From positions 1 through 53,614 of the IMG/VR virus record IMGVR_UViG_3300042569_001941: a stretch of DNA of 53,614 bases. One strand, written 5' to 3'. Both the position numbers and the translations under genes were made by a program. The DNA comes from a virus. Below the pieces are notes generated by a model. The model was not told the origin of the DNA. It did no database searches and worked only from the letters and a program-made list of their open reading frames with translations. Positions 2,291-41,119 of the stretch are shown here, one piece after another. Positions within the stretch are counted from its first letter, which is position 1. Each line of letters opens with the position of its first letter.

Positions 2291-2929
2291 ATGAAACTAT
2301 TAGACACTATATACGAATCCGTTCTATTAGAATACTCACATAAACTCATTGACCAATTGGTAGATAGGTTTAGTGAGGAGGGTGTAGATCCCGAAGAAGC
2401 GAGGGAGTATATCAATTTGTTTCATAGGTTTTCTCAAGGACTCGATCCTGACAAAAGGGATATCACCAAGTATTCGTGGGACGAACTATATAGAACCGTT
2501 AATGATAAGAAAGACAATAGAAGAATTAAGGCGGGGAAAATCGGGGACAAGAACATAGATAAAGATGATGTTGTTTATGGTAAGGATGGTGTGATGATAT
2601 ACAGAGGGGACAGTAAGGAGAAATGTATTAGATATGGTAATGGTTACAATTTATGTATATCTTCAAGAGGAGATGATAACAAATATGATGAATATACTCA
2701 TGTAACTAAAAATTACTATTTTATATTCAACAATAACTTAGATAAGGATGATCCGTTACATTTAGTTGTTATACAGAGACTTTTATATCCTTTAACACGT
2801 GATTCAAGTCCGTATGTATTATGGGATGCCGAAAACAGGTTGATGTTTCCTGTAGACAAATTACCAAGTTTCAATACAATCGAATTGATACTACCTTGGT
2901 TAGAAGGACTTGAACATATCTTCGTATAG
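2291..2929 (+). CDS. Putative capsid-packaged protein with C-x-YG-x-G-x-x-C domain
   Basis: 212 aa. The leader MKLLDTIYESVLLE fits the short tag class with a possible cut after IYE or LLE. The middle has VVYGKDGVMIYRG, then KCIRYGNGYNLCISSRGDD, then YYFIFNN. The same order of elements (V-x-VYK, GYYYQ.., WCVTWRGD, FYFLIDD) appears in the 588-aa cargo candidate at 16071-17837, so the two probably share a domain, which I cannot name. It is transcribed alone from the motif upstream and faces the kinase-like gene convergently. The biochemical role is unknown. Confidence 0.75.
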   Translation: MKLLDTIYESVLLEYSHKLIDQLVDRFSEEGVDPEEAREYINLFHRFSQGLDPDKRDITKYSWDELYRTVNDKKDNRRIKAGKIGDKNIDKDDVVYGKDGVMIYRGDSKEKCIRYGNGYNLCISSRGDDNKYDEYTHVTKNYYFIFNNNLDKDDPLHLVVIQRLLYPLTRDSSPYVLWDAENRLMFPVDKLPSFNTIELILPWLEGLEHIFV

Positions 2930-3040
2930 TAAAATTAGAACTATATTTCTAATTCCTATACATTCGGGGGGTAAAAACCTATAATTGGAAATATATTTCT
3001 AAAAGTGAAATAAAAATTTTCCAGAAATTTTCAGGGAATT

Positions 3041-3547
3041 CTAATAATCGAACAATACCATATTGTTTTCTTCATCAATACCAAGGTTACTTAGGTGGAA
3101 ATCTAATAACACCAAACCTCCCAACTTTAACATATTGAACTCTTGGATAATCCCAAGTATATTACCATATAAAACATCGTTGTCTTTAACTTCTTCTGAT
3201 AAGTCATTTTTCTGATTAACTATATGAGCCATGATGTTACTCGAATGTTTTTTAACAATATTCGCCACATCCATAAATTCAGGTACATCTGTGATAAGTT
3301 TATACTTGTGTTTTACTATAATGTATCTATCCTCATCAAATACGTTCTTCCCCGTCTTTTTCATGGAATATATCTTGGGGAAGTGTTTCAGGTTACCCTT
3401 GAATTTTAAAATTCTCTTTGATACTAATATTTCGGTGTCATCCTCGGTTAGTTTGTATATCTTACCGTTCTTTTCATATACCGACCCCCAATTACCTTTT
3501 CCTATTTTCTCGTAGTGGGATTCCTTTATTATGTCTATTAGTTTCAT
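3041..3547 (-). CDS. Putative capsid-packaged protein kinase-like enzyme
   Basis: 168 aa. The leader MKLIDIIKES fits the short tag, with a cut after IKE. A glycine-rich loop follows (IGKGNWGSVYE, residues 15-25), with candidate ATP-binding Lys32. The C-terminus carries D149-F-H-L-S-N154 and a final D167 (FDY), matching the D-x-H-x-x-N and metal-binding Asp of the kinase/APH superfamily. It is about half the length of a typical kinase and ends right after the FDY, so the C-lobe is minimal. A TATTTATA motif lies 4 nt upstream. If packaged and injected it could phosphorylate host proteins early. Kinase fold is likely; activity is inferred. Confidence 0.75.
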   Translation of the reverse strand: MKLIDIIKESHYEKIGKGNWGSVYEKNGKIYKLTEDDTEILVSKRILKFKGNLKHFPKIYSMKKTGKNVFDEDRYIIVKHKYKLITDVPEFMDVANIVKKHSSNIMAHIVNQKNDLSEEVKDNDVLYGNILGIIQEFNMLKLGGLVLLDFHLSNLGIDEENNMVLFDY

Positions 3548-3551
3548 GATT

Positions 3552-3559
3552 TATAAATA
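3552..3559 (-). promoter_or_regulatory. TATTTATA late motif
   Basis: Read on the minus strand, 4 nt before the ATG of the kinase-like gene at 3547. Confidence 0.65.
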
Positions 3560-3627
3560 TTAATGGTAAATTTTTTAGAATATGAGTACACAATATTCGT
3601 AAAATAAACTACATTTTAAAAAAACAT

Positions 3628-3641
3628 GGACATAGATGTCC
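3628..3641. promoter_or_regulatory. Perfect inverted repeat before the DUF262-HNH gene
   Basis: GGACATAGATGTCC is two 6-nt arms around AG, 10 nt before the ATG at 3652. A regulator site is possible; no consensus is recognised. This gene lacks the TATTTATA motif. Confidence 0.4.
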
Positions 3642-3651: not shown

Positions 3652-5067
3652 ATGAAAATCAACGAACTTTACGAAACAGTAATTAATTATCAAACACAGA
3701 ACAGGGTATTCTTTCAGAATGCCGAGAATTGGGACATTAGAAGATTGGGTGAAATGTATAAAGAAGGTGAACTAATCTTGCAGGATTGGTTTCAACGAGA
3801 CTATTGTTGGAACAAACCTCAGATATGTTCATTAATGCACACCTTGCTACACACCCCAACTTTATTACCCGAGATTGTACTCATTAGAATCGGAGACAAG
3901 TACCATGTGGCTGACGGTCACCAAAGACTTCGTAGTATTTTATTGGAAGTTTTAACCAATCCCGATTTCAAGTACTTTTCAAAAGAACTTACCGAATCAA
4001 CCAAGTACTTTAACGTGGGACCTAAGAATATGGAACTATGGAAGGAGTTTAGTAGGGAGATTGAAAGAAAAACTATTACAGTTAAAGTTATCATCAATAA
4101 TAACTTGGATGAAAATGAATTACGTAACCTCAGTTCTTATGTCTTTAAGAAATGGAATAATGGTACCGCTTTGAGCCCTGCCGAGAAGAGAGGAGCATTT
4201 CCATCCGATTTAAACATCAATATCGTTCAAAGACTTAAGAATACCATTCCATTGGAAAAACAAATATCTCTATTGGTTTCAAGAACGTCAAGTAAGAATA
4301 AGTTTAATGAGTTGGTGGAAAAGGTTTTCTTTCACTTCATGAATCCAAACGCATTACATGACCCAAATGATGATGGGTATAGTATCATACATTCCTATTC
4401 CGAAGATGAATATAGTGGTAAATTTAAAACCTTCTATAAGTTGTTTAACGTTATGACGGATACGGTTTATAACTATACCAACTTCAATGGACATTTTGGA
4501 CCAGGTGCTTGTTGTATGAGAGATGTTCTTACCTTTGTAAATGATTTATATCTTAAGAATGAAATTAAATCCTTTGATGAGTACAGTTGGTACCTTACAT
4601 CTGTTCTTGATACTCTACATACAACTTATTACAATAACAAACGATTTGACGATTACCATGGAGGTAACTACGAAATAATTGATATGGAAATCAATAACAC
4701 TTGGTTTAAAGGTTTCTTCTGTCATTTCGGTAAAGGTCAAGATCATAAATTCGAAAATCGTAGAACATTCCTATATGACAATAGAGAGTTGTTTGGCAAA
4801 CTTATTGAGTATGATCACCAAAGATTGTTTACACAGGTACAGAAACAAATAAAATATATTGAACAAAATAGAGTCTGTGTTGGATTCGATGGTGGCGGTT
4901 GCAGATACCACGGGACCGAACCTTTGTCATATGGTGAAATGGAAGGTGACCATATCGTTGAACATACCAATGGAGGAAAAACGGTTATCGAAAACCTTCA
5001 AATGTTATGTATGGAATGCCATTCCGAAAAAACAAAACAATTCAATACAAAAGAAATTATTGAATAA
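3652..5067 (+). CDS. DUF262-HNH nuclease with capsid-type leader
   Basis: 471 aa. The leader MKINELYET fits the short tag with a cut after LYE. The DUF262 (ParB/Srx-like) N-terminal domain shows QRDYCW (48-53) and DGHQR (88-92), the motif that binds nucleotide in GmrSD/SspE-type proteins. The C-terminus is an HNH nuclease with GDH (432-434), a GG turn and CMECH (453-457), and an earlier C-x-C pair for zinc. DUF262 proteins known from bacteria are mostly modification-dependent restriction enzymes. The host would be attacked, or competing phage DNA destroyed, if this enzyme were injected; that role is inferred. Confidence 0.8.
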   Translation: MKINELYETVINYQTQNRVFFQNAENWDIRRLGEMYKEGELILQDWFQRDYCWNKPQICSLMHTLLHTPTLLPEIVLIRIGDKYHVADGHQRLRSILLEVLTNPDFKYFSKELTESTKYFNVGPKNMELWKEFSREIERKTITVKVIINNNLDENELRNLSSYVFKKWNNGTALSPAEKRGAFPSDLNINIVQRLKNTIPLEKQISLLVSRTSSKNKFNELVEKVFFHFMNPNALHDPNDDGYSIIHSYSEDEYSGKFKTFYKLFNVMTDTVYNYTNFNGHFGPGACCMRDVLTFVNDLYLKNEIKSFDEYSWYLTSVLDTLHTTYYNNKRFDDYHGGNYEIIDMEINNTWFKGFFCHFGKGQDHKFENRRTFLYDNRELFGKLIEYDHQRLFTQVQKQIKYIEQNRVCVGFDGGGCRYHGTEPLSYGEMEGDHIVEHTNGGKTVIENLQMLCMECHSEKTKQFNTKEIIE

Positions 5068-6105: not shown

Positions 6106-6468
6106 ATGAAAGTTATCATATCAGAGTCCCAATTAAGGACCATTATTGAACAACAAACCTCCAACCTTACCGTTCCCGAGCAAACCCTGTTAGGGTTCTT
6201 AAATCGGTTCCTAAGAGGGGAAGAAGGGGAGTTTCAGAATACCCCTATAGATCAGCTTAGAAAGACGATGTTGTTTAATGGTAAGACAATATACCCGATG
6301 GCACAAAAACTCCTTGAGAAGAAGAATACGGGTCGTAAAACATACGATGACAAGACCTTTAACTCCCTGTTTATGTCTATGGATAAGAACATAACAAAGG
6401 AACAACGATATGAGTTCTTTAATGAAGGTGGAACCATCACAAATATAAAGTACAGTTCACAGTTTTAA
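6106..6468 (+). CDS. Putative capsid-packaged protein, 120 aa
   Basis: The leader MKVIISESQLRTIIEQQ is the long tag class with a predicted cut after IIE. The mature part is helical and charged (RRFLRGEEGEF-like segments, KKNTGRKTYDDKTF) with no recognised motif. It starts 1 nt after the lipase stop and overlaps the next ATG by one base, so the three genes are cotranscribed. The function is unknown. Confidence 0.7.
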   Translation: MKVIISESQLRTIIEQQTSNLTVPEQTLLGFLNRFLRGEEGEFQNTPIDQLRKTMLFNGKTIYPMAQKLLEKKNTGRKTYDDKTFNSLFMSMDKNITKEQRYEFFNEGGTITNIKYSSQF

Positions 6469-6717: not shown

Positions 6718-7338
6718 ATGAAACTATCATTATACACCATTGCAGAACAAATGAATGATTTGGCCTTCGATAGAAGATACGGAACGGCGGATGCTGCAGA
6801 AAAATCTAATAAGGCGAATCGTGAATTAATTAATGCAATTGGTGGACCACATAGGGTTCTAGAAATTATGTCGATTGCAAGTATATTCATTCCAGTGGTT
6901 GGTCCATTGGTATCCATGGGATTGGGATTTATAGATTCTGCCGTTTATCTAAAAGAAGGTAAGAAGAAGGAAGCTGCGGTTGCTACAATCTTGGCCATAT
7001 TACCGAAGGTTACCGAGGTGGTTGCTGCAATTCCTGCTGTAAAACAATTGGGACAAAAAGGTATGCAGGCTCTTGCAAATAAACTTGCTTCTAATATGGA
7101 ACTCGGTATGCTTGAAAAACGTGCCCTTGAGGATATCGTTAGGAAAAAATCCATGGTGTATAAAGCCGTTCAGGATTATACAAAGAAAGTGGTTTATGAT
7201 GGTTCACAGAAACTTGCAACTCTTCCTCCTGCTCAGCAGGTTATATTAAAGACTGTGGCCGATGCGGGTATTGGACAATTAAAGACCACGGTTAGAAGTA
7301 GTGCGGTTAGTGGTGTTGCAAATACAATGGTAAAATAA
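6718..7338 (+). CDS. Putative packaged membrane-active protein
   Basis: 206 aa from the ATG after the late motif; a 17-codon upstream extension would overlap the previous gene and the motif. The leader MKLSLYTIAEQ fits the tag with a cut after IAE. A hydrophobic hairpin follows, IFIPVVGPLVSMGLGFID, then a charged turn (KEGKKK), then AAVATILAILPKV. This helix-turn-helix pattern (two hydrophobic helices around a G/D/K turn) also occurs in pre-toxin and membrane-inserting regions. The rest is basic helical. A role in forming a channel during DNA or protein delivery is inferred. Confidence 0.7.
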   Translation: MKLSLYTIAEQMNDLAFDRRYGTADAAEKSNKANRELINAIGGPHRVLEIMSIASIFIPVVGPLVSMGLGFIDSAVYLKEGKKKEAAVATILAILPKVTEVVAAIPAVKQLGQKGMQALANKLASNMELGMLEKRALEDIVRKKSMVYKAVQDYTKKVVYDGSQKLATLPPAQQVILKTVADAGIGQLKTTVRSSAVSGVANTMVK

Positions 7339-7447: not shown

Positions 7448-8695
7448 ATGAAATTAATTGATATTATATTTGAGAGTGTTTTAACTGAACGTATGTTATG
7501 GACTCCAGAAACTAAAAAACAAAGTCTAATAAATAACCCCGAATTAGGTAATTTGGATTTTACTAATGCTGAAGTTGTTTATAATCCCGTAATTCAAAAA
7601 TGGATGGTTAGAGGTTTTTCATGTAAAAAACATCCAGAATGGACCAAGGAAGATTTTACAAAAACCATTGCGGTTGAAAAAAGGACAAGTGGATGTAGAA
7701 TTTGTGGTTTGGAATCAATTAGTAAAAAAAGATTTGAACAGAAGAAATATACTAAAGAATTATTAAGAGATATTGCGTCGAAATACGAAACAAAAAAGAA
7801 ATTTGAAAAGGGGAACCAACCCGCATATCAAGCGGCGATATCATTTGGTCCTTGTTATGATAAAACAACGGGTGAAGAGGTACCTTGTAAGTATTTTAAT
7901 AAAGATAAAAATTTTACAGTATATCGACCAAATACTAAAAATACATTTGGGTTTATTGACGATATATGTTCTCATATGAAATTTGGTGGTTATTACGGGG
8001 AAAAATTTATTTACTCATATACATTCTTTGATGATAAAAATGATATTGTTGGAATTTATGTTGGGTTAACAAATGACGAGGAAAGAAGAAAACAACAACA
8101 TTTATTACCTAAAGAAAATGAGGCGGAGTCTGCCGTTGGTAAGTTCATTAAAGAAAATCCAAATTTTAGATATAAGTATAAAAAATTAACTAATATGGTT
8201 AATTTTGATTTGGCAAAAAAATTAGAATCTTACTACGAAGAAAAATATAAGAGTAAAGGATATAGAATTTTAAACATTGCTAGAACTGGTGGAGGGGGTA
8301 AAACATTTATTCCAAATGAATATTATATAGAAAAAGCACAAAAATGGGTTAAAGAAAAATTAGTTAAAGGAGAGGTTCCATATGTGGGTGACTATAATTT
8401 ATACGACCATACCAATTATAAATCAATTAGGGCTAAAAAATTAATGGACTTAGCCTTTAAAGGAATGGAATATAGAGACAGGAAAAAATATTCTGATCAA
8501 GACATTATCAATGTTGCAATGTCTTGTGGTTCGTATTCTGAATTTATAAAAAAATATAAAAGTACCTTTGCTCAACAAGCAAATAGAAGATTTATGTTAG
8601 ACGATATTAAACAAATGTTTAAAGACGGACTTAATAAAATAGAAAAAATAAACGGATCCAAACTATCGTTTAAAAATATATTAAAACAACTATAA
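7448..8695 (+). CDS. GIY-YIG nuclease with capsid-type leader
   Basis: 415 aa; the start follows the late motif and exposes the leader MKLIDIIFES (cut after IFE, or LTE at 13). A zinc-binding region (C59, H62, then C83-R-I-C86) precedes the GIY-YIG core: YSYTFF (189-194), GIYVG (202-206), a conserved Arg in EERRKQQH, and catalytic Glu260 in KKLESYYEEKY. The C-terminal 130 residues look like a helical DNA-binding tail with repeats of the kind found in homing enzymes. Free-standing GIY-YIG phage enzymes are usually homing nucleases, but the leader suggests virion packaging here. Confidence 0.8.
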   Translation: MKLIDIIFESVLTERMLWTPETKKQSLINNPELGNLDFTNAEVVYNPVIQKWMVRGFSCKKHPEWTKEDFTKTIAVEKRTSGCRICGLESISKKRFEQKKYTKELLRDIASKYETKKKFEKGNQPAYQAAISFGPCYDKTTGEEVPCKYFNKDKNFTVYRPNTKNTFGFIDDICSHMKFGGYYGEKFIYSYTFFDDKNDIVGIYVGLTNDEERRKQQHLLPKENEAESAVGKFIKENPNFRYKYKKLTNMVNFDLAKKLESYYEEKYKSKGYRILNIARTGGGGKTFIPNEYYIEKAQKWVKEKLVKGEVPYVGDYNLYDHTNYKSIRAKKLMDLAFKGMEYRDRKKYSDQDIINVAMSCGSYSEFIKKYKSTFAQQANRRFMLDDIKQMFKDGLNKIEKINGSKLSFKNILKQL

Positions 8696-8696: not shown

Positions 8697-8819
8697 ATGG
8701 GAACAGCTCCAAAAAAAACACGTGCAATGAGAAGTGTACGTTCAGGAAGAAAGAAAATGGAAATCTATAAAAAGAATCAAGAAATTCTTAAGAAGTATTT
8801 GAAATTGGCTAAAGGGTAA
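8697..8819 (+). CDS. Very basic 40-aa protein
   Basis: Starts MGTAPKKTRAMRSVRSGRKK and continues as a Lys-rich helix (KKNQEILKKYLKLAKG). It begins just after the GIY-YIG stop and its TAA overlaps the next ATG by one base, so it belongs to the same transcript. A nucleic-acid or scaffold-binding role is suggested by charge only. Confidence 0.65.
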   Translation: MGTAPKKTRAMRSVRSGRKKMEIYKKNQEILKKYLKLAKG

Positions 8820-9457
8820 TGAAATTTGAAAACATTATTATTGAAATGATTCAACATGATGTTGATGAGATTGCAACGAAAGAAAAAGAACTCGTTGGTA
8901 AAGGAGCATTTCATAATGTGTACCCATCAAATAAAAATCCAAATATAGTTTATAAGATTGGGTTTGATGAAGATGTTAATGGTTGGGTGGATTTATTTAA
9001 AAGCCGTCCCGATATTTTTCCAAAGGTATATGGTGCCGGTCACGTTGACATCAAATTGAAAAAACAAGTAACCAACTTCTCTTGGAGAACTGGTGAGTTT
9101 AAACCAATTACATATAACCCCGGTGACACTGTTAAAGTAAAGTACGTTGCGGTTGAGAGGTTGAATACCGAGAAAGCAAAACAACATTGGAATTCATTGG
9201 CTAATGTTATCTCAACAATGTCAGGTAAATCATTACAAACATATCTTACAAGTTTGGGGATGGATGAGGAAATGGAGGAAGAATTTTTATCTCTCGGTGA
9301 AAAACTAAAAGAAACGGGTAATGAATTCATTTACAAAATCTTTGTTGAGTTATATAATCTTGTTCATTCTGTATACGAATTGAAACCAACTGCAGATGTT
9401 CACGTCGGTAACTATGGGTATGATAAGGATGGTAATCTAAAATGCTTGGATATTTAA
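8819..9457 (+). CDS. Second putative packaged kinase-like enzyme
   Basis: 212 aa. The leader MKFENIIIEM gives a possible cut after IIE. The kinase-like core has VGKGAFHNVY (26-35) with candidate Lys46 in VYKIG, a hinge-like VAVERLNT, and a C-terminal catalytic loop D193-V-H-V-G-N198 followed by D211 (LDI). The order matches kinase/APH-type folds and the gene at 3041-3547. As in that protein, the chain stops right at the metal-binding Asp. The two share layout more than sequence, so they are diverged paralogues or independent gains. Confidence 0.7.
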   Translation: MKFENIIIEMIQHDVDEIATKEKELVGKGAFHNVYPSNKNPNIVYKIGFDEDVNGWVDLFKSRPDIFPKVYGAGHVDIKLKKQVTNFSWRTGEFKPITYNPGDTVKVKYVAVERLNTEKAKQHWNSLANVISTMSGKSLQTYLTSLGMDEEMEEEFLSLGEKLKETGNEFIYKIFVELYNLVHSVYELKPTADVHVGNYGYDKDGNLKCLDI

Positions 9458-9461: not shown

Positions 9462-10619
9462 ATGAAATTACTCGATTCTTTATTTGAGGCGGTTGTTGAT
9501 ATTAGTGAAATAACTAAAATGACTCGAGATGAATTTATTGAAAGGGCCAAAAAAGTTCATGGTGACAAATATAATTACACTAAAGTAAATTATATTAATA
9601 CTGAGACACCTGTCGAAATTATTTGTAATAAAAAAGATAAAGACGGTAATGAACACGGGCCATGGAGAACATTACCAACAAAACATATGAAGTCTGTTGG
9701 AGGTTCAATATGCCCAAAATGCAACGCCGAACGTTTGAGAGAACTATACTCATCAACAACCGATGAATTTATTGAAAGGGCCAAAAAAGTTCACGGAAAC
9801 AAATACGATTATAGTAAAGTAAACTACGTTAATGTTTATGAACCGGTAACCATTATTTGTCATAAAAAAGACGAAAATGATGTTGAGCACGGTTCTTTTA
9901 GTCAAACACCAAAAAGTCATTACGGAGGTAGTGGTTGTCCAAAATGTGGTGTGGAAAAAATGAGACAACAATATTCATTGACAACCGATGAGTTTATTGA
10001 TAGGGCGAAAAAAGTTCACGGAGACAAATACGATTATAGTGAAACTAAATATGTAAATGCACTTACGCCAGTTTTAGTAATTTGTCACGAAAAAAATAAA
10101 GACGGTGATGAACACGGCCCGTTTTTACAATTACCGAGAAATCACACTAGAGGTAGTGGTTGTCCCATATGTGCTAGTTCTAAAGGGGAGAGTGTAATAA
10201 AGGAACTTTTGGACAAACAAGGAATAAAATATATTCAAGAATACCAAAATAAATATTGTACCTCTTTTAAAAATAGAACGAAAAAATGTACATTATTAGA
10301 ATTTGACTTTTATTTATCTGAGATGAATGTCTTAATTGAATTTGATGGTGTGTACCATTTTAAAAAATATCATTCAAACACAAATGATGATTTTATGTCA
10401 AGTGTGTTAAATGATAGAGAAAAAAATAGTTTTACAAAATTGAAAGGGATAAAATTAATTCGTATTTCTTATTTAGATAATGATAATATTGTTGATGAGG
10501 TTATTAATGGACTTAAAAGTAAAGAACAACTTTATTTAAGTACAAATTACCCGAGGGGTAAGGGGTGGGACAATGATAATTTTCAACCAACAACTAAGTT
10601 TATTAAAAAATACACATAA
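9462..10619 (+). CDS. Zinc-finger repeat and PD-(D/E)XK-like nuclease with capsid-type leader
   Basis: 385 aa. The leader MKLLDSLFEA gives a cut after LFE. Three tandem ~75-residue repeats follow, each FI(E/D)RAKKVHG(D/N)KYxY, a strand pair with II/VIC, HG, and a closing G-x-x-CPKC or CPIC; this matches DUF723. The C-terminus reads EFDFYLSE, LIEFDGVYHF and KLIRISY, the pattern of VSR/DUF559-type PD-(D/E)XK nucleases. The repeats probably bind DNA. It could cut host or rival DNA after injection, or act as a homing enzyme. Nucleotide identity between the repeats is high, suggesting recent duplication. Confidence 0.8.
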   Translation: MKLLDSLFEAVVDISEITKMTRDEFIERAKKVHGDKYNYTKVNYINTETPVEIICNKKDKDGNEHGPWRTLPTKHMKSVGGSICPKCNAERLRELYSSTTDEFIERAKKVHGNKYDYSKVNYVNVYEPVTIICHKKDENDVEHGSFSQTPKSHYGGSGCPKCGVEKMRQQYSLTTDEFIDRAKKVHGDKYDYSETKYVNALTPVLVICHEKNKDGDEHGPFLQLPRNHTRGSGCPICASSKGESVIKELLDKQGIKYIQEYQNKYCTSFKNRTKKCTLLEFDFYLSEMNVLIEFDGVYHFKKYHSNTNDDFMSSVLNDREKNSFTKLKGIKLIRISYLDNDNIVDEVINGLKSKEQLYLSTNYPRGKGWDNDNFQPTTKFIKKYT

Positions 10620-10622: not shown

Positions 10623-10934
10623 ATGAAATTAACAGACATACTAACGGAATCGAAGTCATTCGATGAGTTCGCAGAAAAAAGAATGGGTGGGGCATCTAAG
10701 ATTGCAAATAATGCAAAAGAGAAGGGAGGACCATCAATGTTGACATATCACCATTTTAAGGTGAAACTTCCTTATTATAAGAAAGCATCTGAAGGTAAAT
10801 TTGATATGGAAGAATCGAAGAAAGAGTTTATTAAAACATTAAAAAGTATATCTTTAGAAATGAACCAAACCGAATTTCAAACAGAGGTTGGTCGTTTAGA
10901 GGTACTTGGTGAACTTATAATAAAACATAAATAA
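10623..10934 (+). CDS. Putative capsid-packaged protein, 103 aa
   Basis: The leader MKLTDILTES gives a cut after LTE. The mature part has a GGASKIANNAKEKGG segment, LTYHHFKVKLPYY, and a C-terminal helix; it is basic and looks alpha-helical. It starts 3 nt after the previous stop and overlaps the next ATG by one base. The family is not recognised. Confidence 0.7.
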   Translation: MKLTDILTESKSFDEFAEKRMGGASKIANNAKEKGGPSMLTYHHFKVKLPYYKKASEGKFDMEESKKEFIKTLKSISLEMNQTEFQTEVGRLEVLGELIIKHK

Positions 10935-11446
10935 TGAAATTATTAGACATTTTAAAAGAACAAGGATGGTCAAACCCTGAAAAGGCGGCATCTGGACCAC
11001 AAAAGTGTGGGATTACAAAAGGTAATGACGGGTCAAGTAATAGAGAAATGAGACAACAGGATAGAGAGCTTGCGGCAAGTAATAGAGCCGAATCCAAAGC
11101 AAATTCCGCAGAACTTAAGAAGACTTTTGATATGAGATACAGTAGAGATAATGAACCTTTAGATAAAGCAACCAGAAATCAAATCTTTGGTGAATACAAA
11201 CAGTTTAACCAAGGTTTATTAGATGGAGGTTCATATTCTCCCGAACAAAAATTTGCAGTCTTATATAAGGTTTATGATTGGGTTAAGAACGTACCGAGTA
11301 TATCATACACCAAAAAATTATCAGTTAAATTTAACAATCCAAATATAAAATCAATCTCTCTTGAACAACTTGCGGGTTATGCAAATCAAATGGGATGGGA
11401 CAATTTTATAAATTGGTATAATGCAGGTGGACCTGTCATTAAGTAA
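10934..11446 (+). CDS. Putative capsid-packaged protein, 170 aa
   Basis: The leader MKLLDILKEQ gives a cut after LKE. The next ~60 residues are polar, low in hydrophobic residues and rich in N, S, R and E (disordered-looking); a compact helical domain follows, from about residue 60 (KATRNQIFGEYKQF..., LYKVYDWVKNV, LEQLAGYANQMGWDNFINWY). It is the last gene of the operon from 7448; a triple-hairpin terminator follows. The function is unknown. Confidence 0.7.
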   Translation: MKLLDILKEQGWSNPEKAASGPQKCGITKGNDGSSNREMRQQDRELAASNRAESKANSAELKKTFDMRYSRDNEPLDKATRNQIFGEYKQFNQGLLDGGSYSPEQKFAVLYKVYDWVKNVPSISYTKKLSVKFNNPNIKSISLEQLAGYANQMGWDNFINWYNAGGPVIK

Positions 11447-11583: not shown

Positions 11584-11940
11584 ATGGGAAAAAAAATCAA
11601 AATTACAGAAGAGCAATTAAAGAAAATAATTGCGTCTAAACAAGTTAACGAACAATTTGGGTGGGGTGGTGAAGAAAAGGATGTGGCTAGTGAAACAGAA
11701 AGAATGATTAATAGTTTTGTTAGTCAATATAAGGATTTGGTTGCAGGTTCGGACTTCGATAATGAAGAATCTTTATTAAATGCTTGTGATGTATTAAAAT
11801 CTAAATTATGTGGTAATAATGAACCGGTAGATTATACAATGGGTAGTGATGATGAAAATATGTTACCGAATCCACCATCTGAAATTGAAATGAACGAATC
11901 GGTAATCAAAATAAAATCGGAATTTAATAGATTTTTATAA
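11584..11940 (+). CDS. Putative capsid-packaged acidic protein, 118 aa
   Basis: The leader MGKKIKITEEQLKKII, then KQVNEQFGWGG, is the long tag class with a cut after VNE. The mature part is acidic (many D/E) with two Cys residues that could pair (LLNACDVLKSKLCG). No catalytic motif is seen. It is a single-gene unit between a late motif and a terminator. Confidence 0.7.
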   Translation: MGKKIKITEEQLKKIIASKQVNEQFGWGGEEKDVASETERMINSFVSQYKDLVAGSDFDNEESLLNACDVLKSKLCGNNEPVDYTMGSDDENMLPNPPSEIEMNESVIKIKSEFNRFL

Positions 11941-12202: not shown

Positions 12203-12811
12203 ATGAAAATAGTATTAACTGAAAATCAATACAAATCTATTATTCTTGAAGAAACGAATGGTATTGATTCATTTATTGATGAGTTATTAACCGCTTACCC
12301 AAGATTGGAGTCTCATATTGATTTAGTTAAGAAATTCATAGAAGAATCAAATTGTCAAAATATTGAATTTGGTACCTTTAAGTTACCGGCTGCAGGTATA
12401 TCATTACACAACAAAGTTGTTATAAATAAGAAGGTATTAAAATACACATTAGAAAATACCTTATTTGTTATTTTCCACGAAGTCGCTCACCAATACCAAT
12501 ACAAGAAATATGGTTCAGGTATGATGCATAGATTTTATGTTGGGGAAGTTGATATGGATGAGGCGGTTAGATTTTTAAAATATACGGAAAATGTTGCGGA
12601 TCAATTTGGGTTGAGAAAGTGTAGGGAATTTGTTAAATTAGGTTTACTAACCAAAGAATATGTTCCTGAAATGGGGGGATATGACAATTATAGTGATATG
12701 ATGTTTGTAAACTATCTTAATATGCTTAGAGATAAAATAAAAGAAAGTGGTGAAACGGACGATGAAAAAATAAGTGAGTCTCTTTATAACTGGGCAATTG
12801 TAAAATTATAA
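12203..12811 (+). CDS. Zinc metallopeptidase-like protein with capsid-type leader
   Basis: 202 aa. The leader MKIVLTENQYKSIILEE is the long tag class, cut after ILE. The core has the gluzincin-like zinc motif HEVAH (92-96) and a downstream ENVAD (129-133) offering the third ligand; a substrate-side strand KVVINKKVL precedes it. It resembles small M48/ImmA-type peptidases. A packaged protease could cleave host defence or regulatory proteins, or process virion proteins; the target is unknown. Confidence 0.75.
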   Translation: MKIVLTENQYKSIILEETNGIDSFIDELLTAYPRLESHIDLVKKFIEESNCQNIEFGTFKLPAAGISLHNKVVINKKVLKYTLENTLFVIFHEVAHQYQYKKYGSGMMHRFYVGEVDMDEAVRFLKYTENVADQFGLRKCREFVKLGLLTKEYVPEMGGYDNYSDMMFVNYLNMLRDKIKESGETDDEKISESLYNWAIVKL

Positions 12812-12812: not shown

Positions 12813-13271
12813 ATGAAAATAGTATTAACAGAATCACAATTAAAGTATATTATTGAATCTGAAAAAAACGGAGTCATACATTGTGATGGTTGCGGGTGGG
12901 AGTGGAAAAAATCGGATGGTGGTAAAGACCCCTATACTTGTCACAAATGTGGTCATGTTAACAAAGAAGAAGATATTGATGAGAGGAGTAGAAGTTTTGC
13001 ATTTACAAGAAAAAAAAGATTATTTAGTGAACCTGAAAGAATGTCTAATCCGTTGAGGTATAAAGAAGTGGATAGACTAAAAGAAGATGATGAAGGGGAA
13101 AGAAAAGATGTTTATAGTTCTTTAACCGACAAACAAATAAAAAGTATTGACGACTTAAACAAGGATGCAAAATTCTTGAAGTGTAAAGCGTGTAGGAAAT
13201 TATACACCCAAACCACATATAAAAAGAAAAAATCGTTACCCATTTGTCCTTGGTGTGGGAAACATAATTAA
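12813..13271 (+). CDS. Zinc-ribbon protein with capsid-type leader
   Basis: 152 aa. The leader MKIVLTESQLKYIIES is nearly identical to the preceding gene's leader at the DNA level, then diverges, with a cut after IIE. Two zinc ribbons: C-D-G-C-G-W-x-W ... C-H-K-C-G near the N-terminus, and C-K-A-C ... C-P-W-C-G at the C-terminus, joined by a charged linker. The first ribbon with GWEWKKSDGGKDPYTC is a pattern often seen in uncharacterised phage proteins. It is an adaptor or nucleic-acid binder at most. Confidence 0.75.
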   Translation: MKIVLTESQLKYIIESEKNGVIHCDGCGWEWKKSDGGKDPYTCHKCGHVNKEEDIDERSRSFAFTRKKRLFSEPERMSNPLRYKEVDRLKEDDEGERKDVYSSLTDKQIKSIDDLNKDAKFLKCKACRKLYTQTTYKKKKSLPICPWCGKHN

Positions 13272-13304: not shown

Positions 13305-14531
13305 ATGAAACGAATTATTTTTACAGAAAGCCAAATGAAAATGGTTTTGAATGACATTATAAATGAACAAGTTGGCTTTGAAAGACAAGATAATGTCAAT
13401 ACTATTGTATCAACAAAAGACCCTAAACACTCCAAATTTTTTGCAACCAAGGATTTGGGTTATATGGTAAAAAGGGCTGGTTTAAGATGGAATCAAAACA
13501 CCAAAAGTATTGTGCCTGATGAAGAAATGGATAGGGAATTTGCTGAAAATGTTGCAAATATGAAATCTATGATGGATGGAACATCTGCACAGGTTTTTGA
13601 TAGTATGTTAACTAAAAATCCAAACTTTTATTATTATTGTGTATTTCTTTTTATTAATGGTCAGTTTGGAACTCAAACTAAAAATAAAAAAATTGTTGTT
13701 GATAATCAAACAACAATAAAGCAAGAGATGGTTAGTCCGGGTCAAGAGGGTAAGGAGATTGAAATTCCAAACGTCGAGCAGGGATATGAAATGGTTACTC
13801 CTCCGTCGGTTGAACAACCGATGCAATTTCAATTTAATGAGGCAATAATGACCCCTCAATTTATTCAATACATTAATGAAACTATTTTTGGTGGTATTGA
13901 TCAAGCTATTAGTAATATGACCGCTCAATTAGAAAAAGATGGTAGACAAGCTGTAGACGTTTACATAAACAAATTACAAATTACCTCATCTAGTTCAACA
14001 ATACCGAACGGACAAAGTAAACAAACGTTTCCAGGAAAAGTTCCAACATTTAAAGAATTATCAGATGCCAGAGCAAAAGTAGTATACGATTATTTGGTGG
14101 ATGGGTTAACCAAAAGAAAGGCACAATTCAATCAACAGGGTATCGTAATTAATAGTAATGGTACGAATGCAGGTAAAATGATAACTGTTAAGAGCGGAAA
14201 TAAAATGATTGAGCTTGATGGGACAGGTACAAGTGGGGATGCGTATGTTGGTCAGGATAAACAAGAATTGGTTAAAAATCAAAGAGTTGACATGTCATTT
14301 GCATTTGCAGTTAGAGGTACTAATCCCCCAAAAACAGGAAAGGTTACAATCGATTCAATTCCACCACAATTTGCACCCGTAGAAGTTACCGATTTTATAA
14401 TTAGATTTACCGCCACCGGTAGAAATATACTTAAGTTAAGACCTAACATTAATCTTAGAATTACATTACCGAGAATATCGTTAAGGGGTTTATTTGGAAG
14501 AGGAACAAGTATGCCGTGTCCTAAACTCTAA
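13305..14531 (+). CDS. Putative packaged protein with OmpA-like C-terminal region
   Basis: 408 aa. The leader MKRIIFTESQMKMVLNDI followed by INEQVGFE is the long tag class, cut after INE. Around residues 245-330, TFKELSDARAKVVYDYL, GIVINSNGT and NQRVDMSFAF follow the OmpA-type peptidoglycan-binding pattern (L-S-x-x-RA-x-x-V-x-x-YL ... G ... N-x-R-V-x). That would fit contact with the cell wall during entry. The C-terminal 60 residues are basic and beta-rich. The stop codon overlaps the opposing gene's stop by a few bases. Confidence 0.65.
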   Translation: MKRIIFTESQMKMVLNDIINEQVGFERQDNVNTIVSTKDPKHSKFFATKDLGYMVKRAGLRWNQNTKSIVPDEEMDREFAENVANMKSMMDGTSAQVFDSMLTKNPNFYYYCVFLFINGQFGTQTKNKKIVVDNQTTIKQEMVSPGQEGKEIEIPNVEQGYEMVTPPSVEQPMQFQFNEAIMTPQFIQYINETIFGGIDQAISNMTAQLEKDGRQAVDVYINKLQITSSSSTIPNGQSKQTFPGKVPTFKELSDARAKVVYDYLVDGLTKRKAQFNQQGIVINSNGTNAGKMITVKSGNKMIELDGTGTSGDAYVGQDKQELVKNQRVDMSFAFAVRGTNPPKTGKVTIDSIPPQFAPVEVTDFIIRFTATGRNILKLRPNINLRITLPRISLRGLFGRGTSMPCPKL

Positions 14532-26003: not shown

Positions 26004-26333
26004 ATGGAAAAGAACATTATAACCGAAAATTTGATTAGAGAGGCTGTTGATAAGGTCTTATTTGAGCAAATGTCAAAAGTATCAAGACAGGATTTTAGTA
26101 GAGTACAGTTTAAAATAGAGGAATTACAAAATTCTTTAGGTGAAACGGTAAAAGAACTGAGGAAATTGGAAGATTCCATACCATCAGGACTGAAAAGCAC
26201 GTCAAACGCTAGAATTTCGGGAATAACCGTGAGTTTAAATAACGCCCAAAAACTATTAACTCAACTTAAAGATAAGGTTAGACAATATAAGAAGTCCATT
26301 TACACACAATCTTTAGACGAGAAGAAAAAATAG
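26004..26333 (+). CDS. Putative capsid-packaged coiled-coil protein
   Basis: 109 aa. The leader MEKNIITENLIREAVDKV followed by LFEQ is the long tag class with a cut after LFE. The mature part is a nearly continuous basic coiled coil (FKIEELQNSLGETVKELRK...). It may be an internal scaffold-like or DNA-compacting protein. It is in an operon with the ribbon-helix-helix gene. Confidence 0.7.
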   Translation: MEKNIITENLIREAVDKVLFEQMSKVSRQDFSRVQFKIEELQNSLGETVKELRKLEDSIPSGLKSTSNARISGITVSLNNAQKLLTQLKDKVRQYKKSIYTQSLDEKKK

Positions 26334-37181: not shown

Positions 37182-37439
37182 ATGAGAATGGTAATAAACG
37201 AAAAACAATTAAAATTGATACTTTCTACTGAAAATCAAGAACTTGATGAACAAGGTGATGTTGCTAGTGAGCCATCTCCAGGTACGTCAGGTACTCAAGC
37301 TGGAGGTCAAGGATACCCTGAGGTTGGGAAATGGGAAAGTGGTATAGAGAGAGGTCCCGCCAATCAAATTGGGGTCACGAAGTGGGCGGATGTTGTTGGA
37401 GCTAATTTAAAAAGGGGTAAGGCTAATCCATTAAAATAA
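37182..37439 (+). CDS. Short putative packaged protein, 85 aa
   Basis: The leader MRMVINEKQLKLIL, then ELDEQGDV, is the long tag class, cut after LDE. The remaining ~60 residues are Gly/Pro/Ser-rich and probably disordered (SPGTSGTQAGGQGYPEVG), ending basic. It leads the second cargo block. Such a small protein with a large removable leader resembles an internal peptide of T4 type. Confidence 0.7.
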   Translation: MRMVINEKQLKLILSTENQELDEQGDVASEPSPGTSGTQAGGQGYPEVGKWESGIERGPANQIGVTKWADVVGANLKRGKANPLK

Positions 37440-37462: not shown

Positions 37463-38554
37463 ATGAATGATTTAAAATTATCGATTGATGGTCTTTATTT
37501 GTTAGGGGAAGAAAAAATTTATTTCACAAATGAAGGTAAATCTTACGATTTGGACGAAATATCATTTAATCAATGGGTTGATATTTTTAAAGAAAACACA
37601 ATTTTTGCAATTAAAAATAACCTAGTGGAAATTAAAAAACTTTATTCTTTTCAAAGAAGAATGGTTTACCAATTATCCGAAGGTCTTTCGAATGAAAATA
37701 AATCTACAATACTTTTTGAATACGAAAATAAGTTTAGTAATAACTTACTTGTTGAAGATGTTTTAATTTTAGAGGGTTTATTTGGTGATTCTTGGAATTG
37801 GATTAAGGGTAAATTTTCAGAGTTAGGTGGTTGGGCAGTAACTTTAGGTAAGAATTTAGCAACGTGTGCTGCGGGAGGAGGATGTTCACCATTTTTTGAA
37901 CAATTTAGAGAATTATTATTTAATCCCGCTTCAGTCGGTGTTCAAGTTTTTATTACTACCGCTTTTCCTGGATTAGGTAATGTAGGAATGGGATTCTTAT
38001 GGGGTATTATGACAATGTATGATGGGTACCTATTAGCAACAGACTATCAGAATTTTAGTTGGTTGAATTTAATTGTAGATATTATGGGAGTGGCTTTTGC
38101 CGGTATGGGGGCGAGTGCTGCTAGAGCAACACTTGGCGGTTCTAAGGGGGTTGCCGCAATGGCCGGAAAATCATTAGATGACGTTATGGTATCATTAAAT
38201 AAAAACCCAAAAATGGCTTCCATTTTAAAAAGTTTAGGAAACGGTCTAAAATCATTATCAACAAAACTAAAACCAATTGGTGATTTTATGATGAATAAAA
38301 TGGGATTAAAATGGATTGGTAGAGCATTTAAAGCAATTGAAGATGCGGTAACAAAATTAGTCTCTAAGTTATTACCAAATGCAAATCCAAAATATGCAGT
38401 TGCCAGTGGTAAAGGTGTAAGAGCGGGAGCTGAGATGGGTGCAATTGATAAAGTTGCTCACAGTATTGGTTCAGGTGGGGCTGCGGAAATGGAAAAATCA
38501 GTTATAGACGCAAATAAAAAAATAAAACCAAATTATAGTGGTGTTCAATGGTAA
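37463..38554 (+). CDS. Putative virion membrane-inserting protein, 363 aa
   Basis: The first ~105 residues are a helical polar domain ending LILEGLFGDSW, where a cut after ILE would resemble the VNE-F-x-W site of the gene at 40475. Then come hydrophobic helices around residues 150-215 (VQVFITTAFPGLGNVGMGF, LWGIMTMYDGYLL, LIVDIMGVAFAGMGA) and a basic helical tail. The layout, a hydrophobic hairpin around a polar turn, resembles that in the protein at 6718. Likely role: envelope penetration during delivery. Confidence 0.65.
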   Translation: MNDLKLSIDGLYLLGEEKIYFTNEGKSYDLDEISFNQWVDIFKENTIFAIKNNLVEIKKLYSFQRRMVYQLSEGLSNENKSTILFEYENKFSNNLLVEDVLILEGLFGDSWNWIKGKFSELGGWAVTLGKNLATCAAGGGCSPFFEQFRELLFNPASVGVQVFITTAFPGLGNVGMGFLWGIMTMYDGYLLATDYQNFSWLNLIVDIMGVAFAGMGASAARATLGGSKGVAAMAGKSLDDVMVSLNKNPKMASILKSLGNGLKSLSTKLKPIGDFMMNKMGLKWIGRAFKAIEDAVTKLVSKLLPNANPKYAVASGKGVRAGAEMGAIDKVAHSIGSGGAAEMEKSVIDANKKIKPNYSGVQW

Positions 38555-38568
38555 AATAAAATAAAAAC

Positions 38569-40473
38569 ATGAAAGAAGATTTAGTAAACAAAATGAAATT
38601 AATGATGTCTTATGATATGACTAAAACATTAATTGAAAATAAAGAAATTAATAATTTACTTGAGGATGAAGATGAGGATATTAATGAACAAGGAAGTGCC
38701 GCCGCAACATTAAAGAATCTTGGTAAGGGTAGTAAAACGGCTAAAGCGGTTGCTCAAGATATTGTTGCAACAATGAATAAAGGTGGTAAAGCGGGTGAAT
38801 CTATATACATAATTGATGCAACTGGTAGTGCAAAGGCTATAACAAAAGGTGATGAATTATTAGGGGCTCTTAAAGCTGGAACAATCGATGCCGCTAATTT
38901 GGCTAGAGTCAACAAAGGAATATTAAAAAGTAGTGCAGTTACAGATGTTAATTTAATAAGAAACATTGCATCTGATGTTGTTATTGAAGCTAACTTTATA
39001 AAAGCATATGGTGATGAATTTGTGAAAAGTGAGGAGGGAGTAAGAAATTTATTATTTAAAAATGGTTACACAAAACAATCAATTGATGAAATAGTAGCAA
39101 AAATGAAATCAATTCCAAATTATGGTAAAGACGTTGCAGCATTAGAAAAAGCGGTGGTAAAGGGTAAAGGACAAATAAAAAAATTAAAAAGTAAAAATAA
39201 AGATCTTCAAAAGATTATAGATAACCCCCCAACAACCGTAGAGGCGGCAAAAGGACAATTACAACCAACAATTAGTAATAACATAACAGTCGGTAATATT
39301 TCCCAAGGTGCTGCTGCGGGTACACATGCAGAAGCACAAGCGATTAGGGAAATTGCACCTGAAGTTAAGGTGATAGCTCAAGAGTCTAAAGCTATTGTTG
39401 AAACAATGAAACCTTCTAAATGGCAAAAATTCAAAAATATTGCGAGTAGGTTAAAAATGAAATACCTTATCGCTTTGGGAATTGCAGGTGTGGGTGGTTG
39501 GTATCTTTGGAAATTTTTTAAAGATGGTACAACAAAACCTGGTGATATGTTATTTGGTAAATGTTTAGATGATGTTATTGATGATACCGGAACAACAATT
39601 AGAAATACAACGGGTGGAGATCCAGTAGTACAAGTTACAAAAACAGGAAATTCTGACTATGATAGTAAAGGTGGTTTATGGTTCTACAATAATGGTAGAG
39701 TATTCATAAAAGACCAATCAAAAAGAGGTAGATGGTCTTGTAAAGGTACACAAACAGTAGTTGCAGAACAAGACGGTAATCCAAATACAGGTATTGGTAA
39801 CATTAATATTGCTTGGGATGGTGAAGCTGCACCTGTCGATAATGGTGGAGGTTCTGGAAGTGGAGGTTCTGGAAGTTCAAATCCAAACTATCAAGATTGT
39901 TCAACAAAAGATTTTCCATTTGAATTTGGATGTATCGCACCAAAAATTGCGGAAATACAAAAATGTTTAGGTATAACACCACAAAAAGGTTATTTTGGTC
40001 CTAAAACTAAAAAAGGTTTAGAGGATTTACAATATAATTTATCTGGTGGTATTACCAAAGAAACATATGATAAGATTATTTCAGCTTGTAATCCAGTAAC
40101 GGGATCTACAACAGGTACAACCACGGGTTCTACAACAGGTTCTACAGCTTCGGTAACAGGTACAACTACGGGTTCTACAACTGGTAACACAACAACGACA
40201 ACAGCACCTATAACACCTCCAGCAGTACCTGATGAACCTGTGTTCGATAGAAATAGATTACAAGAATTATTAGCAAGTAAAAATTTAGTCAAGAAACGTA
40301 AAGGTGTTATTGTTAAATGGATAGGTCCTGAATTAGAAGGTAACGACTACTACATCTTAGACAAATATTTGATAGATAAGGGTTACATTCAAAAGAGACA
40401 AAGAGAAACTGGTGACAGAGATGATGAAGATGTAACGATGAAATATAAGTGGAAATTACAAGGAGAAGAATAA
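38569..40473 (+). CDS. Putative virion envelope-spanning protein with peptidoglycan-binding domain
   Basis: 634 aa. The N-terminal region ends DINEQGSAA (residues ~37-45), a long-tag cleavage site. Helical and Ala/Lys-rich to ~290, then a single transmembrane helix (about 298-317: KYLIALGIAGVGGWYLWKFF), a Gly/Ser linker, a PG_binding_1-like domain (about 448-490: PKIAEIQKCLG, GYFGPKTKKGLEDL), a low-complexity G-S-T-T repeat (about 509-547) and a basic C-terminal domain. The order fits a protein that crosses the inner membrane and touches the cell wall. Confidence 0.7.
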   Translation: MKEDLVNKMKLMMSYDMTKTLIENKEINNLLEDEDEDINEQGSAAATLKNLGKGSKTAKAVAQDIVATMNKGGKAGESIYIIDATGSAKAITKGDELLGALKAGTIDAANLARVNKGILKSSAVTDVNLIRNIASDVVIEANFIKAYGDEFVKSEEGVRNLLFKNGYTKQSIDEIVAKMKSIPNYGKDVAALEKAVVKGKGQIKKLKSKNKDLQKIIDNPPTTVEAAKGQLQPTISNNITVGNISQGAAAGTHAEAQAIREIAPEVKVIAQESKAIVETMKPSKWQKFKNIASRLKMKYLIALGIAGVGGWYLWKFFKDGTTKPGDMLFGKCLDDVIDDTGTTIRNTTGGDPVVQVTKTGNSDYDSKGGLWFYNNGRVFIKDQSKRGRWSCKGTQTVVAEQDGNPNTGIGNINIAWDGEAAPVDNGGGSGSGGSGSSNPNYQDCSTKDFPFEFGCIAPKIAEIQKCLGITPQKGYFGPKTKKGLEDLQYNLSGGITKETYDKIISACNPVTGSTTGTTTGSTTGSTASVTGTTTGSTTGNTTTTTAPITPPAVPDEPVFDRNRLQELLASKNLVKKRKGVIVKWIGPELEGNDYYILDKYLIDKGYIQKRQRETGDRDDEDVTMKYKWKLQGEE

Positions 40474-40474
40474 T

Positions 40475-41119
40475 ATGAAAGACATTAAAAAAATTGTAAG
40501 AGAAAACCTCTCAAAGAAGCATTCTATAAACGAATCCTTTGAGAGGATTTTCCTTAATGAAAATGACGAGGATAAATTTGGTTTAACCATACAATATTTG
40601 GGTAAATTGATTGATGAGGGATATGACAATGAACAAATAGAAAATGTAGTAAATGAACAATTTGATTGGTTAAAAAAATTATTTACTCCGGATAAACAAA
40701 ACCCAAAAGATACTTCTACAAGAAGTGGTATTTTAGATAAAGTAGGTGGTGGAGCTATTTCACAATTTAAAGAATATGCAATAACAACATTATTAAACTT
40801 AATAGGGTTTAAAGGTCCATTAGTGAGTGCGATGGCAACCGCAATGAGTGAAATGACATTAAGTGATTTAATAGCTGTCTTTAGAGATAAACAAAGTTGT
40901 TCATATCACGGTAGTACCGTTGCTGATGCATTATCCGAATCATTAGTGGTGTATATTATTTCATCAAGTACTGAAGAAGATTCAATGGCCGCAAATTTCT
41001 TAAGAAATACTGTATTTGAATATATAAAATCAAGTCAGTTTGGTGAGATGTTGGCTAATGCTGTTTGTAATGTTGCATACAAAACAAAATCAACAATTAT
41101 ATCAAACATTAACCAATAA
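40475..41119 (+). CDS. Putative packaged protein with amphipathic helices, 214 aa
   Basis: N-terminal pro-region to NVVNEQFDWLKKLF, with the long-tag cut after VNE near residue 68. It starts 1 nt after the previous stop. The mature part has a hydrophobic helix pair (YAITTLLNLIGF, PLVSAMATAMSEM) and a Ser-rich C-terminal region. It is the last of the three-gene cargo block; the membrane-active theme fits its neighbours. Confidence 0.7.
   Translation: MKDIKKIVRENLSKKHSINESFERIFLNENDEDKFGLTIQYLGKLIDEGYDNEQIENVVNEQFDWLKKLFTPDKQNPKDTSTRSGILDKVGGGAISQFKEYAITTLLNLIGFKGPLVSAMATAMSEMTLSDLIAVFRDKQSCSYHGSTVADALSESLVVYIISSSTEEDSMAANFLRNTVFEYIKSSQFGEMLANAVCNVAYKTKSTIISNINQ

Follow-up and report, generated by a model that had tools for sequence, protein, structure and literature searches.

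A Large and Varied Set of Putative Capsid-Targeting Leaders on Unrelated Proteins in a Phage Genome Fragment

Introduction

The stretch of DNA analyzed here, called the window, is the entire IMG/VR record IMGVR_UViG_3300042569_001941, a linear viral fragment of 53,614 bases. Between positions 2,291 and 41,119, about twenty otherwise unrelated proteins begin with one of a few types of short leader, which in nearly all cases carries an (L/I/V)-x-E motif. The leaders are very likely cleavable capsid-targeting propeptides of the type known from phage T4, in an unusually large and varied set, and the sequences indicate that the tagged proteins are probably loaded into the head and delivered to the bacterium at infection. 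Window genes are labelled by their start positions, with (-) for the minus strand; G and L numbers denote related contigs and loci, and a slash in a peptide marks the presumed cut.

The same phage is represented by a contig of 131,212 bases (G001), which includes the window at 99.99% identity. A contig of 98 kilobases (kb), G003, is 99.96-100% identical to G001 at the compared ends, and G002 (32 kb) is a relative with approximately 90% identity across the aligned parts. More distant relatives are G008 and G010, whose sizes as a pair are 288 and 310 kb. A DNA search with window positions 2000-22000 gave no near match among named phages, and a tblastn search with two window proteins gave no match among them; a made-up consensus leader of 21 residues also matched nothing in tblastn, the query being too short to inform. 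The gene content, such as an outer-membrane barrel protein, suggests that the hosts of this clade of giant phages are probably Bacteroidota.

Leader Genes of the Window

On the plus strand, class-A leaders begin the products of 2291 (2291..2929, 212 residues; MKLLDTIYE/S at 2291-2317), for which no family was found; 3652 (3652..5067, 471 residues; MKINELYE/T at 3652-3675); 7448 (7448..8695, 415 residues; MKLIDIIFE/S at 7448-7474); 8819 (8819..9457, 212 residues; MKFENIIIE/M at 8819-8845); 9462 (9462..10619, 385 residues; MKLLDSLFE/A at 9462-9488), which contains repeats and has only sub-cut-off Pfam matches; 10623 (10623..10934, 103 residues; MKLTDILTE/S at 10623-10649); and 10934 (10934..11446, 170 residues; MKLLDILKE/Q at 10934-10960), which has no homologue among the compared proteins. 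On the minus strand, 3547(-) (3041..3547, 168 residues) starts with class-A MKLIDIIKE/S at 3521-3547. Class-A-like starts are found in 6718 (6718..7338, plus strand, 206 residues; MKLSLYTIAE/Q at 6718-6747) and in 17837(-) (16071..17837, 588 residues; MKINDLIFDMVFE/E at 17799-17837).

Class-B leaders are carried on the plus strand by 6106 (6106..6468, 120 residues; MKVIISESQLRTIIE/Q at 6106-6150), 11584 (11584..11940, 118 residues; MGKKIKITEEQLKKIIASKQVNE/Q at 11584-11652), 12203 (12203..12811, 202 residues; MKIVLTENQYKSIILE/E at 12203-12250), the Cys-rich 12813 (12813..13271, 152 residues; MKIVLTESQLKYIIE/S at 12813-12857; Pfam matches sub-cut-off), 13305 (13305..14531, 408 residues; MKRIIFTESQMKMVLNDIINE/Q at 13305-13367; no family) and 37182 (37182..37439, 85 residues; MRMVINEKQLKLILSTENQELDE/Q at 37182-37250), and on the minus strand by 19242(-) (18877..19242, 121 residues; MKKYIFTEGQLKKIIDSQLSE/Q at 19180-19242). 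The leader of 26004 (26004..26333, plus strand, 109 residues; MEKNIITENLIREAVDKVLFE/Q at 26004-26066) is class-B-like. The remaining genes, all on the plus strand, are 37463 (37463..38554, 363 residues; doubtful leader MNDLKLSIDGLYLLGE/E at 37463-37510), 38569 (38569..40473, 634 residues; leader ending in DINE/Q, 38569-38688) and 40475 (40475..41119, 214 residues; MKDIKKIVRENLSKKHSINE/S at 40475-40534).

All 21 starts listed in the initial annotation translate as it had written them, and its claim of about twenty unrelated proteins with a common leader is convincing for 20 of the 21 genes, 37463 being doubtful. Its division into two classes holds for most leaders but not for 38569 and 40475, which are neither A nor B and were assigned to classes C and D, respectively; both of these further types occur in relatives.

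Among the 20 window proteins scanned (all listed genes but 37182), only 3652 has Pfam families over the cut-off, namely GmrSD_N (41.2 bits), HNH (40.5 bits) and HNH_5. Apart from the sub-cut-off and kinase-like cases that follow, the scanned cargos have no assignment. The LysM and peptidase labels given earlier lie below their cut-offs: LysM at 14.0 bits (cut-off 20.9) in the LysM-like 19242(-), and SprT-like at 19.5 bits (cut-off 25.6) in 12203, a possible metallopeptidase. A possible GIY-YIG nuclease, 7448, is likewise sub-cut-off (20.1 against 22.6 bits). Two kinase-like chains, 3547(-) at 3041-3547 (PHROG 18305 'kinase', 25.4 bits) and 8819 at 8819-9457 on the plus strand, stop right at a DFG-like Asp (FDY, LDI), and they are therefore without the usual kinase C-lobe. 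The fold listing for the model of 8819 is led by protein kinases with a best Z of 6.8, which is suggestive only, and residues 1-29, the leader, are predicted to be disordered in this model. The model of 17837(-) is poor (mean predicted local distance difference test score 66.6), and its fold search gave no usable match.

Similarity of the N-Termini and the Cut Motif

Ungapped BLOSUM62 comparison of the N-termini of 60 window genes gave 29 pairs scoring at least 32. The corresponding number for internal segments has a mean of 1.67 and a maximum of 5 in 100 resamplings, and that for shuffled N-termini a mean of 1.58 and a maximum of 5 in 100 trials. Such pairs make up 26 of 210 within the 21 listed genes against 2 of 741 within the 39 others. 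When all genes were compared with one another and homologous pairs were dropped, the score was reached among 1,769 pairs by 27 at the N-terminus, 2 in internal segments and 5 at the C-terminus.

The initial annotation had also claimed that (L/I/V)-x-E precedes the cut, and this agrees with the counts: 20 of the 21 listed genes and 3 of the 39 others have [LIV]-x-E-[QNSADGTE] within residues 6-32, and shuffled leaders carry it in a mean of 6.4 and a maximum of 13 of 21 (1,000 shuffles). The first match in a leader is not always the presumed cut. In 11584 and 26004 it falls within the class-B core, and the second match (VNE/Q and LFE/Q, respectively) is at the presumed cut. The doubtful 37463 has the motif (LGE/E) and fits every leader class poorly. 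Because the 21 genes had been picked partly on leader and cut features, the unselected comparisons weigh most.

Eight more leader candidates were recognized by eye in G001, at contig positions 32667, 34947, 40996, 44404, 46548, 49101, 56502 and 58337. Six class-B leaders were compared codon by codon at their identical residues, and the codons agree in 64 of 96 cases against 52.9 expected from codon use; the leaders are therefore conserved mainly at the protein level.

Exchange and Fusion of Leaders

Homologous cargos are found behind different leaders. The cargo of 10623 has homologues with 59-63% identity in G010, G018 and G027, all behind class-B leaders, and the window copy starts with class-A MKLTDILTE/S. 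The cargo of 8819, behind class A in the window, has class-B leaders on both of its G008 copies and in G033, and that of 12203 is behind class B in the window and behind the short MKKILKE/Q in G008. The class-B cargo of G001 56502 occurs behind T4-like leaders in the phage contig LR756504, where paralogues are leaderless and start (MSLKDLLPKHQ...) near the presumed cut. The leader switches between homologous cargos fall near the predicted cut.

Two-cargo fusions also occur in relatives. In L171, the cargos of 6106 and 6718 are fused in one frame behind one leader, and in L178 the cargos of 7448 and 8819 stand behind one leader, the 8819 part being without its own. The change of leader on a homologous cargo gives the best argument for regarding the leader as a detachable address.

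Most window genes with a close homologue retain their leader class, which was counted against exchange but is expected. The class-A-like start of 17837(-) is kept in homologues from G007, G008, G010, G012, G024 and L175, the leader type of 26004 is kept in homologues with 47-57% identity, and a G008 homologue of 40475 with 50% identity has the same leader type. For 37463, the G010 homologue starts with a class-B-like stretch and the G007 homologue does not.

Leaders in Related Viral Contigs

A degenerate DNA pattern for the class-B core, M-K-x-x-x-T-E-x-Q-L-K-x-I-I, matches 33 viral contig stretches, and it gave no match in genome_contigs, in which 84,980 species of bacteria and archaea are represented by a single genome each. 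At the 33 loci, class-A or class-B leaders are present on 77 of 341 frames of at least 60 residues (61 B and 16 A) and on none of 209 internal-Met controls. As each locus was chosen by one class-B leader, approximately 28 other B leaders and all 16 A leaders are unselected.

Pattern rules gave 20 class A-C leaders in G001 (internal-Met controls 1 of 107), 16 class A-D leaders in G008 (1 of 211), 12 leaders in G010 (0 of 213) and 22 leaders over all classes in Salicola phage SCTP-2 (3 of 315). In G010, pairs scoring at least 36 number 47 at the N-terminus, 13 in internal segments and 14 at the C-terminus; the N-terminal excess in G008 and G010 is smaller than that of the window. Leaders of relatives end, for example, in LINE/N or INE/Q. 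The families over the cut-off in cargos of relatives are poly-A polymerase/CCA-type and HD in G008, and peptidoglycan-binding in G008 and G010. An ART-PolyVal-like cargo stands behind a class-D leader at G008 172827 (28.9 bits, cut-off 31.2).

Upstream Motif

The upstream motif is defined as TATTTATA or [GA][AG]TATTTAT within 30 bases of the start. It precedes 12 of 20 leader genes in G001, 11 of 17 in G008 and 9 of 14 in G010, and the numbers for other genes are 14 of 179, 30 of 416 and 38 of 323, respectively. Random 30-mers, 3,000 from each contig, contain it 12, 10 and 15 times in the same order. Ten of the 21 listed window genes have the motif, among them 6718, 7448, 11584, 13305, 17837(-), 37182 and 37463, and eleven are without it. 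Both G008 and G010 also have it at the genes for terminase, protease and scaffold, and only G010 has it at the portal gene; it may be a late-type promoter. The form GATATTTATA occurs 32 times in the window with at most one mismatch, against 16.5 expected, for example at 2277-2286 upstream of 2291, at 7431-7440 and at 17842-17862. It often lies just 5-8 bases before the start codon; as a promoter, it would leave space for no more than a very short 5' untranslated region.

Prohead Protease and gp23 in Relatives

The initial annotation had proposed a search for a gp21-like prohead protease elsewhere in the genome. None was seen in the 53-131 kb fragments of this phage, where a PF03420 profile search of the window and the 131 kb contig gave no match, and G001, G002 and G003 yielded no capsid gene. 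The extension through G003 shows, by eye, glycosyltransferase-like and tail-fibre-like genes and no head genes (PF07068 was searched and PF03420 was not searched there). As the window and the 131 kb contig are without recognizable head genes, more distant relatives were examined for head proteins.

Among the 33 class-B contigs, gp23 was found in six (PF07068, more than 200 bits) and an S77 protease in eight (PF03420 over the cut-off), and all six gp23-bearing contigs also have the S77 (gp21) protease, which answers the search positively for the relatives. A module of scaffold, gp23 and S77 protease is present in relatives. In G010, the stretch from terminase to gp23 occupies 23.7-32.7 kb, and two genes close to the right end of the window map to 0.3 and 6.5 kb of this contig; in the present phage, the module would accordingly be expected approximately 13-22 kb past the right end of the window, with a gp23 propeptide ending in LINE/A or LINE/S. 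Six aligned proteases, from five gp23-bearing contigs and one more, are 30-32% identical to T4 gp21. The alignment of eight sequences has invariant columns at N51-P58 in part, H85-P86 and S140-G143, where we take H85 and S140 to be the catalytic residues of T4 gp21. By eye, intein-like insertions were seen in terminase, portal and one prohead protease (G008 10453-13458 and 13516-16290, and the protease frame of G033 with 616 residues).

The presumed propeptide end of gp23 is LINE/A in five of the six class-B contigs and LINE/S in G010, and LINE/A is the motif that ends several leaders. A wider gp23 scan gave at least 587 related viral stretches, and the best 80 were kept. Among these, the predicted propeptide end is LINE/A in 73 of 73 gp23 frames, a protease-motif frame lies within 8 kb in 45 of 50 gp23 frames with more than 4 kb upstream, and the retained flanks of 17 of the 80 loci contain a class-B leader. 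None of the loci from this class-B clade matches G001 at the DNA level.

At five gp23 loci (L309, L312, L317, L322 and L328), a frame with a class-B leader lies 1.9-2.4 kb downstream of gp23 on the opposite strand. The leader runs directly into a stretch rich in lysine, with 13 lysines in L317, and a basic domain with a conserved Cys follows. It would be reasonable for a basic, DNA-binding peptide to carry a cleavable head tag at such loci.

The Same Pairing in Other Phages

In T4, the leaders end in FIAE/A and gp23 has FLTE/A, and the gp24 propeptide MAKINELLRE/S resembles class A. Salicola phage SCTP-2 has leaders such as MKINDLLKE/N, an S77 protease at 85 bits and a gp23 with MLKE/S. In Agrobacterium phage Atu_ph07, whose gp23 (302 bits) has LME/N, ten consecutive genes in tandem at MF403008 39484-49507 (L253) start with M[KR]W-x-[QD]-L-x-E, and YRG[MI] follows soon after in all ten, which we take to resemble ADP-ribosyltransferase motifs. 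By gene count the ten are coding sequences (CDS) 53-62. This places them, by position only, inside the cluster of CDS 31-76, to which 29 of the 131 virion proteins of this phage belong (PMC6102473).

The 636 kb LR756504 has T4-like leaders such as MKHLKRFKTFINE/S and a gp23 with IHE/N. In the gp23 clade of the LR756504 type, with 80 IMG/VR loci and 72 frames, the end is INE/N in 66, LNE/N in 3 and IHE/N in 1, with no match in 2. In the gp23 clade that was scanned first, the leaders are of another, T4-like type, and class-A or class-B leaders are almost absent from the best 80 of 384 relatives. The T4-like (T-type) pattern is permissive, as it matches 39 of 1,527 frames and also 10 of 1,005 controls.

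Other Genes of the Fragment

A full-length outer-membrane beta-barrel of the TonB-receptor type with a signal-peptide-like start lies at window positions 19685-23068 (plus strand; OMP_b-brl_4 165 bits, CarboxypepD_reg 60 bits). A run of glycosyltransferase-like and methyltransferase-like genes, recognized by eye, occupies 26803-35013 (plus strand) and is partly conserved in G010. A transfer-messenger RNA gene (41277-41686) and 12 tRNA genes (45968-49197) are on the minus strand. Several plus-strand genes are without a capsid leader, namely Lipase_3 (101 bits) and FeoA (29 bits) at 5355-6104 and 6468-6701, respectively, Glyco_hydro_19 with PG_binding_1 at 15199-16041, and Endonuclease_NS behind a signal-peptide-like start at 23686-24288.

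A second N-terminal family was observed in G001 at 12397-12877 (minus strand) and 48775-53927 (plus strand), also designated L004 and L006. Eight small proteins start near FKFF and one near FKLL, which recalls the MLPF start of phage CBB virion proteins and MIPFTFF in G008; this N-terminus is possibly a tag for external appendages. A PF07068 match in G001 (21.9 bits over 30 profile positions) was rejected as gp23, being a protein of 95 residues with an FKFF stretch.

Interpretation and Alternatives

The reading of the leaders as T4-like capsid-targeting sequences, put forward in the initial annotation, is supported by the protease and the gp23 motif in relatives, by leader exchange and fusion, and by the upstream motif. 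We infer scaffold binding, packaging, cleavage, injection and action in the host in the following order. During late expression, the leader would bind the scaffold core of the growing prohead and carry the cargo inside. The S77 (gp21-type) prohead protease would then cut after (L/I/V)-x-E, as for gp23. The released cargos would stay inside the head and pass into the host together with the DNA, and there they may act on host defence or takeover.

Several observations weigh against this interpretation. The window, G001 and G003 showed no head gene of the present phage, and no protease was found on 25 of the 33 class-B contigs, which are or may be fragments; the largest of them, G024 (232 kb), matches the module-bearing G010 at 100% identity over the 13.7 kb compared. 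PF03420 is sub-threshold (cut-off 27 bits) in three phages of 635-642 kb, LR756504 (24.7 bits), LR756502 (22.7 bits) and LR745206 (20.1 bits). The 33 stretches are not independent: four, including G010 itself, are 100% identical to G010 where compared, one is 100% identical to G008, and G001 and G002 themselves are included. At a score of at least 36, G008 has an elevated number of pairs in the C-terminal control as well (37, with 68 N-terminal and 17 internal), and G001 outside the window has little excess (5 N-terminal, 1 internal and 4 C-terminal). The sole listed gene failing the motif is 8819, with M after IIE. In 17837(-), D stands at the class-A glutamate, with VFE/E four residues further; in T4, processing is blocked by Asp at position 10 (PMC9026906). 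The upstream motif is missing from both gp23 genes, that of G008 and that of G010, and from the portal gene of G008. By eye, none of 38 translated proteins of phage CBB has a leader of class A or B.

The alternative that survives best agrees on targeting and cleavage and holds that many of the tagged proteins are head-assembly or DNA-condensing proteins, not host effectors. It is rather unlikely and still deserves serious weight, as T4 gp24, gp22, gp67 and gp68 likewise carry such cut sites (PMC9026906), the counterparts of 37182 to 40475 lie in one block in G007, G008 and G010, and lysine-rich proteins follow class-B leaders near gp23 at the five loci described above. The enzyme-like cargos stand against it, that is, GmrSD_N with HNH over the cut-off, the kinase-like chains, and the CCA/poly-A polymerase and HD of relatives, and many cargos vary between phages.

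An improbable alternative takes the leader as a tag by which the proteins dock to another part of the virion, such as the tail, baseplate or whiskers, with L-x-E incidental and the proteins outside the head. Other shared N-terminal virion tags do exist: 55 virion proteins of CBB were detected by mass spectrometry (PMC5259590 Table 4), and eight of those translated share a different N-terminus, MLPF. Against this alternative, several phages have leader ends that agree with the cut motif of gp23, 20 of the 21 listed genes contain the cut motif, and a cargo swaps its leader near the predicted cut or may be leaderless. That the leaders are relics of DNA-level shuffling, in which a mobile promoter-plus-start element dragged the first codons along, is highly improbable, since TATTTATA is very near many starts but 11 of the 21 listed genes keep the leader without it, codons agree at 64 of 96 identical positions with 52.9 expected from codon use alone, and the match extends to the cut motif and is retained between distant phages.

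Comparison with Known Systems

In the open-licence literature searched, such signals are described for T4 and T-even phages and for P1, and ejection proteins cut after Glu for phiKZ-like phages. The interpretation as capsid-targeting propeptides is closest to T4, in which the leader of IPI, IPII, IPIII and Alt is cut by gp21 and a short N-terminal leader with an (L/I)-x-E end likewise stands on unrelated proteins (PMC9026906). T4 differs in having three internal proteins (IPs) and Alt, whereas approximately 20 tagged genes in 53 kb with several leader classes, known here from sequence, are found in the present phage, and most cargo families are different. Ip1-Ip3 of T4 have only the leader in common and differ in the GmrSD that they block; for T-evens, at least 10 types of Ip are reported (PMC12373910). 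The T-even internal proteins are alike in sharing the leader only; here, the 3652 cargo is itself GmrSD-family nuclease-like, and no inhibitor was identified. IPIII without its capsid-targeting sequence functions in the host cytoplasm (PMC9391042).

In P1, an N-terminal signal takes DarB into the head, comparable to the present proposal, and no consensus is reported for the Dar N-termini (PMC9024508), whereas a clear consensus is found here. In the giant phages phiKZ, 201phi2-1 and SPN3US, head proteins are cut after Glu by the prohead protease and ejected (PMC9026906). The phiKZ motif is S/A-x-E, and the motif here is L/I/V-x-E with a gp21-like S77 protease in relatives. Polyvalent proteins are predicted injected effectors (PMC5512222), and the ART-PolyVal-like cargo in G008, just sub-cut-off, is a point of likeness; they have many domains per chain, whereas most tagged proteins here have at most one recognizable domain. 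What appears to be new is how many proteins are tagged, that several leader classes can replace one another, and that the T4 rule extends to giant phages of a common clade.

Conclusions

At least 587 viral stretches encode a related gp23, so that the system would be common if the leaders accompany that gp23. The chances are slightly in favour of a widespread giant-phage 'secretome', in which 20-30 effectors per genome would be addressed to the head by interchangeable cleavable leaders, and nucleases, kinase-like and ADP-ribosyltransferase-like proteins and tRNA-end enzymes would reach the host ahead of the expression of any phage gene. In that case, the leader pattern together with the capsid cut motif would be a sequence-only predictor of injected phage effectors across metagenomes, and the set would include a GmrSD-family nuclease used by a phage. 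The prohead protease of each phage would be expected to cut its leaders at the same motif as its capsid protein. Having no common domain, injected phage proteins are difficult to recognize; if the leaders mark them, many giant-phage proteins of no assigned role would become predicted early effectors. As modular address tags, the leaders would also allow proteins to be loaded into phage heads of very large size.

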